A DNA stretch of 64,000 bases from Tabrizicola caldifontis (GTDB lineage: Bacteria > Pseudomonadota > Alphaproteobacteria > Rhodobacterales > Rhodobacteraceae). The position numbers and the translations under genes are program-made. This document shows positions 1,883 to 7,211 of this stretch, piece after piece. The stretch spans positions 62,001 through 126,000 of the forward strand of contig NZ_SIJH01000005.1 in NCBI RefSeq assembly GCF_004762095.1. Direction: 5' to 3'. The notes beneath the pieces were generated by a model. That model saw nothing but the letters and a program-made list of their open reading frames with translations. It did not search any database and was not told the DNA's origin. How positions within the stretch are numbered: the stretch's first letter is position 1; every line of letters begins with the position of its first letter.

Positions 1883-2467
1883 ATGCCTGCCCTGATCCCG
1901 ACCGACCATGTGGCCCGTGTCGTCTGGCTGGGTTATCAGCCTGTGCCGGTGGAAAAGCTAGTGATCACCGCACAGCCGCTGATGGAAATGCCGCTGAGTT
2001 TCTCGGGCTTTGCGGGCGAGGTGCATTCCGGTCTGACGCGGCCGTCGTGCAGCCGGGTCGTGAAGCAGCATCCGAAGGGCACCGAGATCAGGAATGTCCG
2101 GCAGCTTTGCGTGGTCAGTGCCGAGGAAATGGCCGAGGTCGCCCGCGACATGGGGCTGTGCGCGATGGATTACGCCTGGGTCGGCGCCTCTCTGGTGGTC
2201 GAGGGCATCCCGGATTTCACCCATGTCCCGCCGTCGAGCCGGTTGCAGGGGCCGGACGGGGTGACGCTGGTCGTGGACATGGAGAACCTGCCTTGTCAGG
2301 AGCCGGCGGTGACCATCGACAGGGCATTGCCCGGGCAGGGCAAGGCGTTCAAGGCAGCCGCCGCGGGCAAGCGGGGCGTGACGGCCTGGGTCGAGCGCGA
2401 AGGGATCCTGCGGCTGGGCGACGAGCTGCGGTTGCACGTTCCGGCCCAAAGGCCCTGGCGCGGGTGA
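1883..2467 (+). CDS. MOSC domain-containing protein
   Basis: A 194-residue protein made essentially of one MOSC beta-barrel, the fold shared with the C-terminal part of molybdenum-cofactor sulfurase and with YiiM. MOSC-only proteins are thought to handle sulfur or molybdenum cofactor, but few have an assigned reaction. Family-like features are the central VVDMENLPCQEP segment, which carries the conserved cysteine (about residue 138), and the C-terminal GVTAWVEREG followed by LRLGDELRL. No signal peptide is seen, so it should be cytosolic. The ATG at 1883 follows AGAGGAGAGG closely. It lies directly downstream of the corA-like gene. No molybdoenzyme gene is nearby, so the partner is unknown. 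Confidence 0.8.
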   Translation: MPALIPTDHVARVVWLGYQPVPVEKLVITAQPLMEMPLSFSGFAGEVHSGLTRPSCSRVVKQHPKGTEIRNVRQLCVVSAEEMAEVARDMGLCAMDYAWVGASLVVEGIPDFTHVPPSSRLQGPDGVTLVVDMENLPCQEPAVTIDRALPGQGKAFKAAAAGKRGVTAWVEREGILRLGDELRLHVPAQRPWRG

Positions 2468-2692
2468 TCCGGCTGGCCCTGGGCGGGCGCAGCCCCCAGA
2501 CACCCGGCGGGATGTTTGCGCACAGAAGATGGGCAGATACAGCCGAATTTTCCGGCTTTGGTGCCGTGGTTTCTTATGGGAAACAGGTCAGGGCGAATTT
2601 CGCGGTTTTCAGGTCGGAAACCGGCCTAGGCATCGCCGTTTCGCCCGGTATCACGTCGCAAACGGAACAACCTGCCCCGTGGGAGACGCGAC

Positions 2693-4369
2693 ATGGCCTT
2701 CAAGACCGACATCGAAATTGCGCGCGAAGCGAAGAAGAAGCCGATCATGGAGATCGGGGCAAAGCTTGGCATCCCGGCCGAGCATCTGTTGCCCTACGGC
2801 CATGACAAGGCCAAGGTCAGCCAGGAGTTCATCAAGAGCCTGGCCGGCAAGCCCGACGGCAAGCTGATCCTCGTCACCGCGATCAACCCGACGCCGGCGG
2901 GTGAGGGCAAGACCACGACCACGGTGGGCCTGGGCGACGGGCTGAACCGGATCGGCAAGAAGGCGGTGATCTGCATCCGCGAGGCGTCCCTGGGCCCGAA
3001 CTTCGGGATGAAGGGCGGCGCGGCGGGCGGCGGCATGGCCCAGGTCGTGCCGATGGAGGAAATGAACCTTCACTTCACGGGTGACTTCCATGCGATCACC
3101 TCGGCCCACAACCTGCTGGCGGCCATGATCGACAACCACATCTACTGGGGCAACGAACTTGGCATCGACGAGCGCCGCGTGGTCTGGCGCCGGGTGATGG
3201 ACATGAACGACCGCGCGCTGCGCGACATCGTGGTCAGCCTCGGCGGGGTATCGAACGGCTTCCCGCGTCAGACCGGGTTCGACATCACGGTCGCCTCGGA
3301 AGTCATGGCTATCCTGTGCCTCGCCAACGACCTGGAAGATCTGCAGAAGCGTCTGGGCGACATCGTGGTGGCCTATACCCGCGACAAGAAGCCGATCTAC
3401 TGCCGCGACCTCAAGGCCGACGGCGCGATGACGGTGCTTCTGAAGGACGCGATGCAGCCGAACTTGGTGCAGACGCTGGAAAACAACCCCGCCTTCGTCC
3501 ACGGCGGCCCCTTCGCCAACATCGCGCATGGCTGCAACAGCGTCATCGCCACGAAGACGGCGCTGAAGCTGGGCGAGTACGTCGTGACCGAGGCGGGCTT
3601 CGGCGCCGACCTCGGGGCCGAGAAGTTCTTTGACATCAAGTGCCGCAAGGCCGGACTGAAACCCGCCGCTGCGGTGATCGTGGCCACGGTCCGCGCGATG
3701 AAGATGAACGGCGGCGTGGCCAAGGCCGATCTCGGCGCCGAGAATGTCGAGGCAGTGAAGAAGGGCTGTCCGAACCTCGGCCGCCACATCGCCAACGTCA
3801 AGAGCTTCGGCGTGCCGGTCGTCGTGGCGATCAACCACTTCTACAGCGACACGGATGCCGAAATCGCGGCGGTGAAGGCCTATGTCGCCGAACAGGGCGC
3901 CGAGGCGGTTCTGTGCAAGCACTGGGCGCAGGGCTCTGCCGGGATCGAGGATCTGGCGCGCGCCGTGGTCAAGCTTGCCGAAAGCGGCGCCTCGACCTTC
4001 GCGCCGCTTTATCCCGACGAGATGGGCCTGTTCCAGAAGATCGAGACCATCGCCAAGCGCATCTACCACGCCGACGAGGTGCTGGCCGACAAGTCGATCC
4101 GCGACCAGCTGAAGGCCTGGGAGGCCGCGGGCTATGGTCACCTGCCGATCTGCATGGCCAAGACGCAATACAGCTTCTCGACCGACCCCAACCTGCGCGG
4201 CGCGCCGACAGGCCATTCGGTCCCAGTGCGCGAGGTGCGACTGTCGGCCGGCGCGGGCTTCATCGTGGTGATCTGCGGCGAGATCATGACCATGCCGGGC
4301 CTGCCCAAGGTGCCGAGCGCCGAGGTGATCCGCCTGAACGAACAGGGCCAGGTCGAGGGCCTGTTCTAA
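2693..4369 (+). CDS. fhs: Formate--tetrahydrofolate ligase
   Basis: This enzyme (EC 6.3.4.3) joins formate to tetrahydrofolate using ATP to give 10-formyl-THF, in the cytosol. It is 558 residues, the normal size. The ATP-binding P-loop TPAGEGKT is at residues 67-74, and the family blocks [18 protein letters not shown] and [14 protein letters not shown] are all present. The ATG at 2693 has GGGAGACG just upstream. It heads a one-carbon cluster: chorismate mutase, a divergent folD and a canonical folD follow on the same strand at short spacing. The trio could run formate into methylene-THF for biosynthesis, or run backwards as an oxidation route for methyl groups; both uses are known in Rhodobacteraceae. 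The 225 bases upstream hold no gene and no riboswitch that I could recognise. Confidence 0.97.
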
Positions 4370-4391
4370 GCGGTCGCATTGCCTATGGCGG

Positions 4392-4416
4392 GGCATCCCC
4401 TTATCTCGGGGGTGCC
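4392..4416. other. Hairpin between fhs and the chorismate mutase gene
   Basis: GGCATCCCC and GGGGGTGCC pair across a 7-base loop (9 pairs, one of them G-U), 22 bases after the fhs stop. There is no T tract, so it is more likely a stabilising or attenuating hairpin than a full terminator. Confidence 0.35.
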
Positions 4417-4434
4417 TCGCCCAGGGAGACGACG

Positions 4435-4746
4435 ATGCGAAAGCCCGCAGACTGCACGACAATGGCCCATATCCGGGCTGAGATCGACCGGCTGGACGAG
4501 GATATCGTCCGGCTCTTTGCAGAGCGGGCGGCCTATATCGACCGCGCGGCCGAGATCAAGGCAGAGGCCGACCTGCCTGCCCGGATCGAGGCCCGCGTCG
4601 AGGAAGTGGTACGGAACGTCCGCCGCCATGCTGCCACCTACGGGCTGCCGCCCGATCTGGTGGAAAAGCTTTGGCGACGGCTGATCGACTGGTCGATCGC
4701 GCGCGAGGAAAGCAAGCTTGGACCGGACAGTCTGAGGAAGGGATGA
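4435..4746 (+). CDS. AroQ-type chorismate mutase, small
   Basis: A 103-residue all-helical protein of the AroQ class, which converts chorismate to prephenate. The first helix carries the typical pattern IRAEIDRLDEDIVRLFAERA, followed by the EIK segment. The later helices hold RIEARVEEVVRNV and the long C-terminal helix ending DWSIAREE. Candidate active-site residues are the arginine of helix 1 (about residue 14), Arg30 and Lys41; these are positional guesses. Some close relatives act as isochorismate-pyruvate lyases, so the exact substrate is open. The ATG at 4435 follows GGGAGACG. It sits between fhs and folD, 7 bases before folD, an odd place for an aromatic-pathway gene unless coupled to p-aminobenzoate/folate supply. 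Confidence 0.8.
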   Translation: MRKPADCTTMAHIRAEIDRLDEDIVRLFAERAAYIDRAAEIKAEADLPARIEARVEEVVRNVRRHAATYGLPPDLVEKLWRRLIDWSIAREESKLGPDSLRKG

Positions 4747-4753
4747 GCGCGGG

Positions 4754-5632
4754 ATGCCTGCCACGCTGATTGACGGCAAGGCCATTGCGGCCCGAATGCG
4801 TGAGGAAACGCGGGCTGAGGCCGCACGGCTGACGGCACTGGGCTGGACGCCGCGGCTGGTGTCGATTTCGGTCGGCGATGTGGCAGCGGCAGAGCTTTAC
4901 GTCCGCAACCAGCAGAAGTCGGCCGAAGCCTCGGGCGTTGGATTCGAGGCGCGGAACTATCCCGAGACGATCAGCCTGGAGCAATTGCAGGGCGTGCTGG
5001 CAGGTCTGAACGCGGATCCGAGGGTGAACGGGATCATCATCCAGCGGCCGCTGCCTTCGCACATCCCGGTGAAGGCGTTGCAGAAGGCCGTACATCCCCT
5101 GAAGGATGTCGAGGGTATGCATCCCGCCTCGATCGGCAATATCGTGTACAACGATCTGGTGCTGGGCCCTTGCACCGCAGTCGCCGCGGTCGAGATCCTG
5201 AAGACCCTGCCGCTGAGGATGGAAGGGCTGGATGTCTGCGTGATCGGGCATTCCGAAATCGTGGGCAAGCCCATCGCCTTCCTGATGATGGGGCTGGGGG
5301 CTACGGTCACGGTCTGCCACCACATGACGCGCCAGGTCGCGGTGCACAGCCGGGCGGCGGATGCCGTCTTTGTGGCGGTAGGCAAGCCCGGCCTGGTGCG
5401 CGGCGAGATGCTGAAACCCGGCGCGGCGCTGATCGACATAGGCATCAACCGTGTTGACGGCCGCACTGTGGGAGATGCGGATTTTGCCAGTTGCGCCGAG
5501 GTAGCGGGATGGATCACGCCGGTCCCCGGCGGGGTGGGGCCGGTGACCGTGGCGATCCTGATGAAGAACGCGGTGCTGGCGACGCAGCTGCAGATGGAAC
5601 ATTACCGCACTGCCTTTGCGGCGGCGGTCTAG
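4754..5632 (+). CDS. folD: Divergent FolD paralogue, probable NAD(P)-dependent methylene-THF dehydrogenase
   Basis: A 292-residue FolD-family protein. Bifunctional FolD oxidises 5,10-methylene-THF and then hydrolyses methenyl-THF to 10-formyl-THF. The fold is intact: folate-site YVRN at 49-52, GIIIQRPLP around Gln97, Rossmann GHSEIVGKP at about 165-173, and TPVPGGVGP near the end. However, the lysine expected after YVRN (Lys54 in E. coli, Lys56 in human MTHFD1) is Gln53 here. The second aspartate of the DVDG motif is also changed, to Glu120 (DVEG). In the human enzyme, changing this lysine is known to remove cyclohydrolase but not dehydrogenase activity. I infer a dehydrogenase with little or no cyclohydrolase activity, complemented by the canonical FolD encoded 8 bases downstream. 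Reduced activity or a different pterin substrate is possible. Confidence 0.85.
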
Positions 5633-5640
5633 GGGGAGGG

Positions 5641-6537
5641 ATGGCGATGACGGCCAGGGTGATAGACGGCAAGGCCTTTGCGGCACGGGTGCGGGCGCAG
5701 GTCGCGGAACATGTGGCACGGCTGAAGGAGGAGAACGGGATCCAGCCAGGTCTTGCCGTGGTGCTGGTGGGCGAGGATCCGGCCTCGAAGGTCTATGTCA
5801 GGAACAAGCATGCCTCGACGATCGAGGTCGGGATGGCAAGCTTCGAGCATCGCCTGCCGGCCGAGACATCGGAAGCCGACCTTCTGGCACTGATCGACCG
5901 GTTGAACGCGGACCCGAAGGTGCACGGAATTCTGGTGCAACTGCCGCTGCCGGGGCATCTGAACTCGGAATTGGTCATCAACCGGATCAATCCGGCGAAG
6001 GATGTGGACGGGTTCCACATTTCCAATGTCGGGCTGCTGGGAACCGGGCAGAAGGCGATGGTGCCCTGCACACCACTGGGATGCCTGATGATGCTGCGGG
6101 ATCACCACGGCAAGCTTGCCGGGCTCGAGGCGGTTGTGGTGGGCCGGTCGAACATCGTCGGGAAGCCGATGGCGCAGCTTCTTCTGGGTGACAGCTGCAC
6201 AGTGACGATCGCGCACAGCCGGACGAAGAACCTGGCCGAGGTCTGCCGCCGCGCCGACATCCTGGTTGCGGCGGTAGGCCGGCCAGAGATGATCACCGGC
6301 GACATGGTGAAGCCGGGGGCTACGGTGATCGATGTCGGCATCAACCGGATCGAGCGCGATGGGAAGGGTGTCCTGGTGGGCGACGTGCATTACACGAGCG
6401 CAGCAGAGGTTGCGGGGGCGATCACCCCGGTGCCGGGTGGTGTCGGGCCCATGACCATTGCCTGCCTTCTGGCCAACACGCTGACTGCCAGCTGCCGGGC
6501 GCATGGACTGGCCGAGCCCGAAGGGCTGACCGCTTAG
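5641..6537 (+). CDS. folD: Bifunctional methylenetetrahydrofolate dehydrogenase / methenyltetrahydrofolate cyclohydrolase
   Basis: The canonical FolD of the pair, 298 residues. It interconverts methylene-THF, methenyl-THF and 10-formyl-THF using NADP+. All expected catalytic positions are present: Tyr52 and Lys56 in YVRNK, Gln100 in ILVQLPLP, and Asp123 in KDVDGFH. The Rossmann segment GRSNIVGKP and the C-terminal [11 protein letters not shown] are also there. The ATG at 5641 is chosen over a far-upstream in-frame start because GGGGGAGGG lies immediately before it and the protein then matches the family length. It is the last gene of the fhs cluster and is convergent with pdeM, whose stop is 17 bases away. 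Confidence 0.96.
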
Positions 6538-6554
6538 GCTGGGCAGCACGCCAC

Positions 6555-7211
6555 CTACCTGGGCATCGGAATGGCAAGGACGCGCGGGCCCGTCAGGACT
6601 GCCAGTGCATCCTGCGCCATCAGGGTGGCCAGCGCCGGATCATCGCAGCGCAGGCCTCCGGTGTAGGTGCCGTAGGCGGGCAGGATAAGCCGGCTCGAGT
6701 CGACCAGAAAACAGGGGCGCCACTGGCCGGCAAGCTGGGCTTTCGGGTGGTAGTGTCCCGATATCTCTGCCCGGTCTGCCGGGTCGGCAATGTGGCGGAA
6801 GGTGAAGGGCCGCAGACCGAGTTCGGACCGGTGAGAGCCGCCGAGTTCGATCGGGCCGGGGTCGTGGTTGCCGGTGATCCAGATCCAGGTGCGCCCGGCG
6901 ATCAACCGGGCAAGCCAGAGACGGTATGTGTCATCAAGGCCATTGGCGGCGGCAAGGTCATCGAAGCTGTCGCCAAGGCAGATGACTGTGCTGGCCCCCG
7001 TGGCGTCGATATCTCGGTCGAGCTTTTCCAGAGTCGCGTGCGTTTCATACGGCGGCAACAGCGCTCCGCTGCGGCGTGCAAAGCGTTCGGATCTGCCGAG
7101 ATGCAGGTCAGAAACGGCAAGCAATCCACTTGCGGGCCAGAACATGGCCCCTGATGGCATCAGGTGCAGGGTTTCGCCCCAAAAGCTGCAAGGGACCATC
7201 GGTCGTGACAC
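6555..7211 (-). CDS. pdeM: Ligase-associated DNA damage response phosphoesterase PdeM
   Basis: A calcineurin-like metallophosphoesterase of the PdeM family, 218 residues. It belongs to the set encoded with an ATP-dependent DNA ligase, an exonuclease and an Lhr-like helicase in many bacteria. The metal-binding motifs appear in order: SDLHLGRS (Asp/His), GDSFDD, GNHD and GHYHPK. No signal peptide is seen. The start is uncertain: ATG at 7211 or a second ATG at 7199, neither with a clear ribosome-binding site. In most genomes pdeM directly follows the helicase gene. Here the helicase lies on the same strand about 5.7 kb upstream, with glycan genes between, so the pair appears split by an insertion. 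The substrate is not established. Confidence 0.88.
   Translation of the reverse strand: MSRPMVPCSFWGETLHLMPSGAMFWPASGLLAVSDLHLGRSERFARRSGALLPPYETHATLEKLDRDIDATGASTVICLGDSFDDLAAANGLDDTYRLWLARLIAGRTWIWITGNHDPGPIELGGSHRSELGLRPFTFRHIADPADRAEISGHYHPKAQLAGQWRPCFLVDSSRLILPAYGTYTGGLRCDDPALATLMAQDALAVLTGPRVLAIPMPR

Follow-up and report, generated by a model that had tools for sequence, protein, structure and literature searches.

The gene at positions 4754..5632 on the forward strand of the window, the whole stretch of 64,000 nucleotides of Tabrizicola caldifontis that was analysed, encodes a FolD-subfamily protein of 292 amino acids without the cyclohydrolase lysine (FolD1). This protein is best explained, with fair probability, as a dehydrogenase-only FolD, possibly with NAD+ as cofactor, which would serve the oxidation of methyl groups linked to tetrahydrofolate (THF) with a canonical FolD supplying the cyclohydrolase. 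Judged from its sequence, FolD1 is a member of an old, distinct alphaproteobacterial FolD subfamily; it is not a sporadic mutant, nor does it stem from a recent tandem duplication. The subfamily is real and conserved, and no name for it was found.

FolD1 belongs to a row of four genes on the same strand. The row consists of fhs (2693..4369), encoding a formate-tetrahydrofolate ligase of 558 amino acids (NCBIfam PRK13505.1, 944 bits, cut-off 652; Pfam FTHFS), a chorismate-mutase-like gene (4435..4746, 103 amino acids; TIGR01803, 77.5 bits, cut-off 73.35; Pfam CM_2), FolD1, and FolD2 (5641..6537), a canonical bifunctional FolD of 298 amino acids (NCBIfam PRK14188.1, 497.2 bits, cut-off 396), the start of which was taken as the first ATG past the FolD1 stop. 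FolD1 is flanked by gaps of 7 and 8 bases, and a consensus scan of positions 2400-6800 turned up neither a promoter-like site nor a terminator-like one in the forward direction. Both FolD domains of Pfam, THF_DHG_CYH (PF00763, 106.5 bits) and THF_DHG_CYH_C (PF02882, 182.6 bits), were identified over the full length of FolD1, which places it in the FolD superfamily. It scored under the NCBIfam cut-off for every model listed (25 of the 30 that matched), the best score being 283.9 against 421 bits. Most relatives likewise have the chorismate-mutase-like gene (42-91% identity) placed between fhs and FolD1; it was undetected in others, and at two loci (L050, L079) it sits between FolD1 and FolD2.

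In the alignment, Gln53 (codon CAG, 4910..4912) and Glu120 (codon GAG, 5111..5113) of FolD1 occupy the columns of Lys56 and Asp125 of human MTHFD1 and of Lys54 and Asp121 of E. coli FolD, and Lys56 and Asp123 of FolD2 share the same columns. These four residues had been pointed out in an earlier note on this DNA, which was correct as to the lysine and the aspartate and missed the other changes: Arg98 (codon CGG, 5045..5047) at the place of human Leu101, and His166 (5249..5251) and His190 (5321..5323) at the places of human Arg173 and Ser197, both contacts of the NADP 2'-phosphate. The description of FolD1 as a natural version of the single K56Q mutant consequently does not hold, since these three substitutions accompany the loss of the lysine. 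The catalytic lysine of the YxxxK motif, by which bifunctional FolDs are recognized, is replaced by Gln53. Lys55, considered in the earlier note as a possible replacement lysine, was ruled out; its column is that of human K58 and E. coli K56, where the bifunctional enzymes carry a lysine as well, and 38 of the 81 FolD1 sequences have Arg, Ala or Ser there.

The residue signature is conserved in an all-or-none manner, beyond what chance would give. Gln53 and Glu120 are present in 81/81 FolD1 sequences (80 relatives and the window), the pair being kept beside fhs in relatives, and 78/78 of the FolD2 sequences next to FolD1 (the window and 77 relatives) have Lys and Asp. In a wider set, the Gln, Arg and Glu residues and the first His were found in all of the 125 distinct FolD1-type sequences and the second His in 123 of them, while Lys and Asp were found in 143/143 distinct canonical sequences, and no intermediate between the two residue sets was observed among these 125 and 143 sequences. 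The pooled loci comprised 155 FolD1-type and 153 canonical sequences before the removal of duplicates (rows with the same residues 6-200 as another row), and hits of fewer than 230 aligned residues were also dropped before counting. Labels were assigned from the best-scoring query, so the residue split is to be taken jointly with the score gap: among the matches listed in a draw of genomes of the class, FolD1-type proteins were at 54% identity or more and at least 302 bits, and other FolDs at no more than 47% and 230 bits. Three contig-edge fragments blur this gap in a sample of the family; two, in genome G753, are canonical (88-89% identity to FolD2) and the third, in genome G817, is FolD1-type (Gln, Arg, Glu). 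Gln97 (human Gln100), just before Arg98, is preserved, and Tyr52, Gln100, Gly273 and Gly276 (human numbering) are preserved in 155/155 FolD1-type sequences, duplicates included.

Tyr52, Lys56, Gln100, Leu101, Asp125, Gly273 and Gly276 are listed as key residues of human MTHFD1 for substrate and catalysis, and the Leishmania trio Arg171/His194/Ser195 as binding the NADP 2'-phosphate (PMC3368264); the human trio Arg173/His196/Ser197 was transferred from the latter to the listed human residues in this analysis. Based on these lists, FolD1 alters three of the seven catalytic-site residues (K56, L101 and D125) and two of the three 2'-phosphate contacts. According to the same source Asp125 binds and orients the pterin, so the change to Glu is not simply the loss of a cyclohydrolase residue, as which Asp125 had been misread. 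The Leu101 to Arg and Asp125 to Glu changes would alter the shape of the pterin pocket, and the dehydrogenase too could suffer from them. The replacement of two phosphate contacts is suggestive of NAD use; E. coli FolD, which is NADP-linked (PMC5688156), has Ala and Arg in these two positions, and hence the His pair of FolD1 is no proof of it.

A FolD tree of 122 rows (quick LG+G4, SH-aLRT, without bootstrap) placed the FolD1-type sequences in one clade (SH-aLRT 97), with 67 canonical rows and the human sequence on the other side. The neighbouring FolD2 is therefore not a recent duplicate of FolD1, and the proposal that FolD1 is a local tandem paralogue of FolD2 was ruled out. The pair order is FolD1-FolD2 in the window type and FolD2-FolD1 at L131, L132, L155, L157, L158 and L214, an arrangement that points to more than one origin of the adjacency. 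The two genes are apart from each other in several lineages. Yeast Mtd1 fell on the FolD1 side (SH-aLRT 98), an unsafe placement since its branch length of 4.91 and odd letter make-up make long-branch attraction likely. In a tree of FHS proteins (86 rows with FolD1 at the locus and 21 without, one of the latter, L196, from a genome with FolD1 elsewhere), the presence of FolD1 at the fhs locus switched at least 16 times, eight of which were forced by strongly supported branches. FolD2 was present at 20/20 of the FolD1-lacking fhs loci read, which had been chosen for fhs-FolD adjacency and are thus uninformative on how often FolD2 leaves fhs. One genome (G842, L168) has no FolD1 between the chorismate-mutase-like gene and FolD2, and its close relatives (L024, L020) keep it; this is apparently a recent loss, and the pattern looks like repeated loss. 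The pN/pS value was 0.215 for FolD1 (13 sequences, 78 pairs) versus 0.246 for FolD2. This purifying selection rules out a pseudogene and, along with the invariant Tyr52, Gln100, Gly273 and Gly276, indicates a working protein.

Relatives of FolD1 were obtained by a protein scan of species genomes, from which the best 80 of at least 531 relative-encoding stretches were taken. In the class draw of 385 genomes, FolD1-type proteins were found in 21 (the own genome included) from 11 families, at 54-100% identity and at least 302 bits. In a phylum draw of 398 genomes, matches of at least 59% identity were found in 15, all of the same class, the others listed (to E 1e-70) being at 41-46%. The family sample of 120 genera contained FolD1-type proteins in 16, ten at 79-100%, five at 55-67% and one as a contig-edge fragment (G817). 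This result concerns the level of the class and is not in strict contradiction with an earlier survey, in which 157 bacteria were sampled at one assembly per genus, but the subfamily covers at least 12 alphaproteobacterial families in these samples.

A canonical FolD was found together with FolD1 in 36/36 distinct genomes counted (21 of the class draw and 15 others of the family sample), one of which is 1.2 Mb in size. In another (G745) the canonical gene is represented by contig-end fragments alone, none of which reaches the lysine site. For the class draw, the canonical FolD was listed in 13 of the 21 genomes and seen in one more (L085), and the remaining seven possess a second FolD copy with Lys and Asp (7/7), six at 61-67% identity to FolD2 and one (G015) at 39%. 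It was listed in 13 of the 15 other genomes, and G817 has two copies. Replacement of the canonical FolD by FolD1 was not seen among the 36 genomes. One locus (L053), belonging to a MAG with the label Hyphomicrobiales, holds fhs-FolD1, with no FolD2 inside 13.7 kb. In another (L006, CP059262.1), the record title of which names Exiguobacterium profundum isolate SSD5, a FolD1 of 96% identity occurs along with an fhs row of the Rhodobacteraceae type; the species label is probably wrong.

In the reaction scheme that we infer, FolD1 would oxidise 5,10-methylene-THF to 5,10-methenyl-THF, possibly with NAD+, and would no longer catalyse the hydrolysis of methenyl-THF to 10-formyl-THF. The loss of the cyclohydrolase is likely, the retention of the dehydrogenase probable and the use of NAD+ possible. 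Hydrolysis of methenyl-THF would be left to the co-encoded canonical FolD2 and in part occur spontaneously, and Fhs, acting in reverse, would release formate and conserve ATP. The methyl groups oxidised would be those of compounds like sarcosine, methylamine and TMAO. Human MTHFD1 with the K56Q change is said in the earlier note to retain dehydrogenase activity; this result was not found in our literature search. The prediction drawn there, that loss of the lysine removes the cyclohydrolase and leaves some dehydrogenase, is supported by the carolacton-selected E. coli FolD K54N, in which cyclohydrolase activity was undetectable and about 19% of the dehydrogenase activity was left (PMC5688156). 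This laboratory parallel has an amide side chain at the place of the lysine, as does FolD1; it is a single change associated with slow growth, whereas FolD1 carries a concerted, conserved set, and the same paper states that methenyl-THF can hydrolyse spontaneously (PMC5688156). No paper on a lysine-less bacterial FolD subfamily was found in the literature search, outside which lie most subscription journals, so that its absence is unproven.

Yeast Mtd1 (PDB 1edz), a known monofunctional NAD-dependent methylene-THF dehydrogenase, has Thr at the place of the lysine, likewise replaced in FolD1 (by Gln), and Glu at the place of Asp125 (DVEG), which makes Glu at this position compatible with a dehydrogenase. 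Mtd1 shares Gln110, Asn129 and Ala144 of FolD1 at subfamily-marking columns; unlike in FolD1, its Gln100 position is occupied by Tyr and its Arg173 position still by Arg, and its identity to the other rows of the tree does not exceed 30%. Tentatively, FolD1 might be a bacterial counterpart of Mtd1, that is, an NAD-linked dehydrogenase-only enzyme which would split a catabolic methylene-THF pool (NAD+, to formate, ATP and CO2) from a biosynthetic one (NADP+, canonical FolD), and which may form a complex with the canonical FolD supplying the cyclohydrolase. MtdA belongs to a protein family other than FolD. In methylotrophs, MtdA and Fch carry dehydrogenase and cyclohydrolase on separate proteins, and in the FolD-PurU pairs of Paracoccus and Methylobacterium CM4 extra plasmid copies of FolD are used for C1 substrates (PMC4543880, PMC3621897).

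It is rather unlikely that FolD1 is still bifunctional, with the positive charge moved from the lysine to Arg98 beside Gln97 and a cyclohydrolase site rebuilt with Glu120. Arg98 is indeed as strictly tied to the missing lysine as Glu120 is (125/125) and Gln97 is kept, but replacement of the lysine abolishes the cyclohydrolase in E. coli FolD (PMC5688156). A bifunctional enzyme could substitute for the canonical one somewhere, and FolD1 was never found without a canonical FolD in the 36 genomes. Two plasmid-borne relatives are annotated as bifunctional in the database, an annotation which is probably based on homology only.

That the dehydrogenase too has been lost or changed, so that FolD1 binds another C1-pterin or has a regulatory or scaffolding function alongside a partner (such as FolD2 in a FolD1-FolD2 heterodimer), is also unlikely. 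Such a role would agree with the extent of the changes at the catalytic site (three of seven residues, the pterin-binding Asp among them) and at the 2'-phosphate contacts (two of three), and with the adjacency of FolD1 and FolD2 in two different orders. Against it stand the invariance of Tyr52, Gln100 and the two glycines, the Glu at the Asp place of yeast Mtd1, and the distance between FolD1 and FolD2 in several lineages.

The gene neighbourhoods of 32 FolD1 loci with an arrangement other than that of the window were read (L114-L133, L154-L163, L213 and L214). Methyl-oxidation or formate genes were identified in 13 of these (L114, L127, L128, L129, L131, L132, L133, L154, L155, L157, L158, L159 and L214), and the genes searched for were absent near FolD1 in the other 19, which speaks against the methyl-oxidation reading. 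L155 has the order soxB-soxD-soxA-soxG-fhs-FolD2-FolD1, with SoxA over the cut-off, soxG below that of its model and soxD identified by eye. L157 has the order fhs-FolD2-FolD1-tdm, with TMAO demethylase and trimethylamine monooxygenase over cut-off. Over curated cut-offs, TMAO demethylase is also encoded near FolD1 at L158 and L159 and trimethylamine monooxygenase at L129; L154 has only a Tmm fragment about 8 kb from FolD1. On plasmid p-SCP4 of Ponticoccus alexandrii (L214), the annotated genes fdhF, formate-THF ligase (fhs), folD, FolD1 (as bifunctional) and tdm lie in a row. At L127, FolD1 is beside soxBDAG on the opposite strand (SoxB and SoxA over cut-off, SoxG by Pfam, SoxD by eye), and at L114 it adjoins glxBCD-like genes (by eye) and glnT (type III glutamine synthetase over cut-off). 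FolD1 adjoins fdhA at L128 and L133, the formate dehydrogenase alpha subunit of the latter being over the curated cut-off. The earlier note proposed a one-carbon flux split between a dehydrogenase and a bifunctional enzyme as a plausible reason for the pair; for such a split, these neighbourhoods suggest a flux directed towards the oxidation of methyl groups.

One genome (G303) has two fhs-FolD2-FolD1 clusters (L131 and L132). Both are preceded by a PanB-like gene, identified by eye, and followed by a molybdopterin-oxidoreductase-like gene, which scored below the cut-offs of the models in L131 and was identified by eye in L132. Within a single genus with large genomes (L160-L163), FolD1 lies near the glycolate oxidase gene glcF, directly tail to tail in three of the four loci. 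On a plasmid of Paracoccus aminovorans (L213) it adjoins a BCCT transporter gene, with choline genes about 8 kb off.

As controls, 13 canonical FolD loci of FolD1-bearing genomes were read, in which no sox, tdm, tmm, glx or fdhA gene and one fhs gene were found. In a paired contrast of these same 13 genomes, such genes were near FolD1 in three or four and near the canonical FolD in one (p=0.32 or 0.59); as this is not significant, the weight rests on the specific operons.

In the family sample, Tdm was present in 10/16 FolD1-bearing genera versus 22/104 others (Fisher p=0.001, G817 included) and, without G817, in 9/15 versus 23/105 (p=0.004), the genera not being independent draws and two of the 32 Tdm-bearing genomes scoring below the cut-off of the Tdm model. 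This association was carried by the six more divergent FolD1 members (6/6); for the FolD1 type of the window alone it was 4/10 versus 23/105 (p=0.24). No association with PurU was found in the same sample (2/15 versus 30/105, p=0.35, G817 counted without FolD1). Genes for fhs were present in 112/120 genera and soxA-like genes in 117/120 (112 over cut-off), compared with 16/120 for FolD1-type genes, and an explanation of FolD1 presence by either gene was ruled out as both are near-universal in the sample. The genome of the window encodes a TMAO-demethylase homologue over the cut-off of the model and a sarcosine-oxidase-like/NMG-synthase-like (sox/glx-like) cluster. A role in methyl-group oxidation is supported in several lineages and would extend to the host of the window.

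With glycine betaine as the only carbon source an fhs null mutant of R. pomeroyi did not grow, and its growth on choline was poor; methylene-THF oxidation via Fhs was proposed to supply energy, and FolD is the enzyme shown for it (PMC4744692). A figure legend on methylamine clusters of Rhodobacteraceae assigns THF-bound methyl groups to folD and purU (PMC7574528), and a paper on C1 metabolism of SAR11 lists a bifunctional folD (PMC3160333); the available text of PMC13390433 contains nothing on a folD gene.

A dehydrogenase operating in the reductive, biosynthetic direction, in which Fhs would load formate and FolD2/FolD1 would carry out its reduction to methylene-THF, to be used in making serine or thymidylate, is improbable. 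The upstream fhs in the same row would suit it, as would the reversibility of the FolD reactions (PMC11064299), the bidirectional FolD proposed for some bacteria (PMC4543880) and the divergent FolD1 of L127 beside thymidylate synthase-like and DHFR-like genes (by eye). The co-location of FolD1 with methylene-THF producers and formate dehydrogenase argues against it, and the failure of the R. pomeroyi fhs null mutant on glycine betaine fits oxidation (PMC4744692). It is most improbable that FolD1 was kept because it escapes natural inhibitors of FolD, among them carolacton, a compound that binds to the catalytic lysine: the residual dehydrogenase of E. coli FolD K54N is completely insensitive to carolacton (PMC5688156), but the canonical FolD is retained in the counted genomes and the informative neighbourhoods point to C1 oxidation.

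With a dehydrogenase-only FolD1, the annotation of two relatives as bifunctional FolD means that C1-flux models of Rhodobacteraceae and their kin may assign wrong reactions. FolD1 would represent a natural, conserved test of the role of the FolD lysine and of how the dehydrogenase dispenses with it. It may also serve as a marker of, and an entry point to, pathways that oxidise the methyl groups of TMAO, methylamine and sarcosine via THF.
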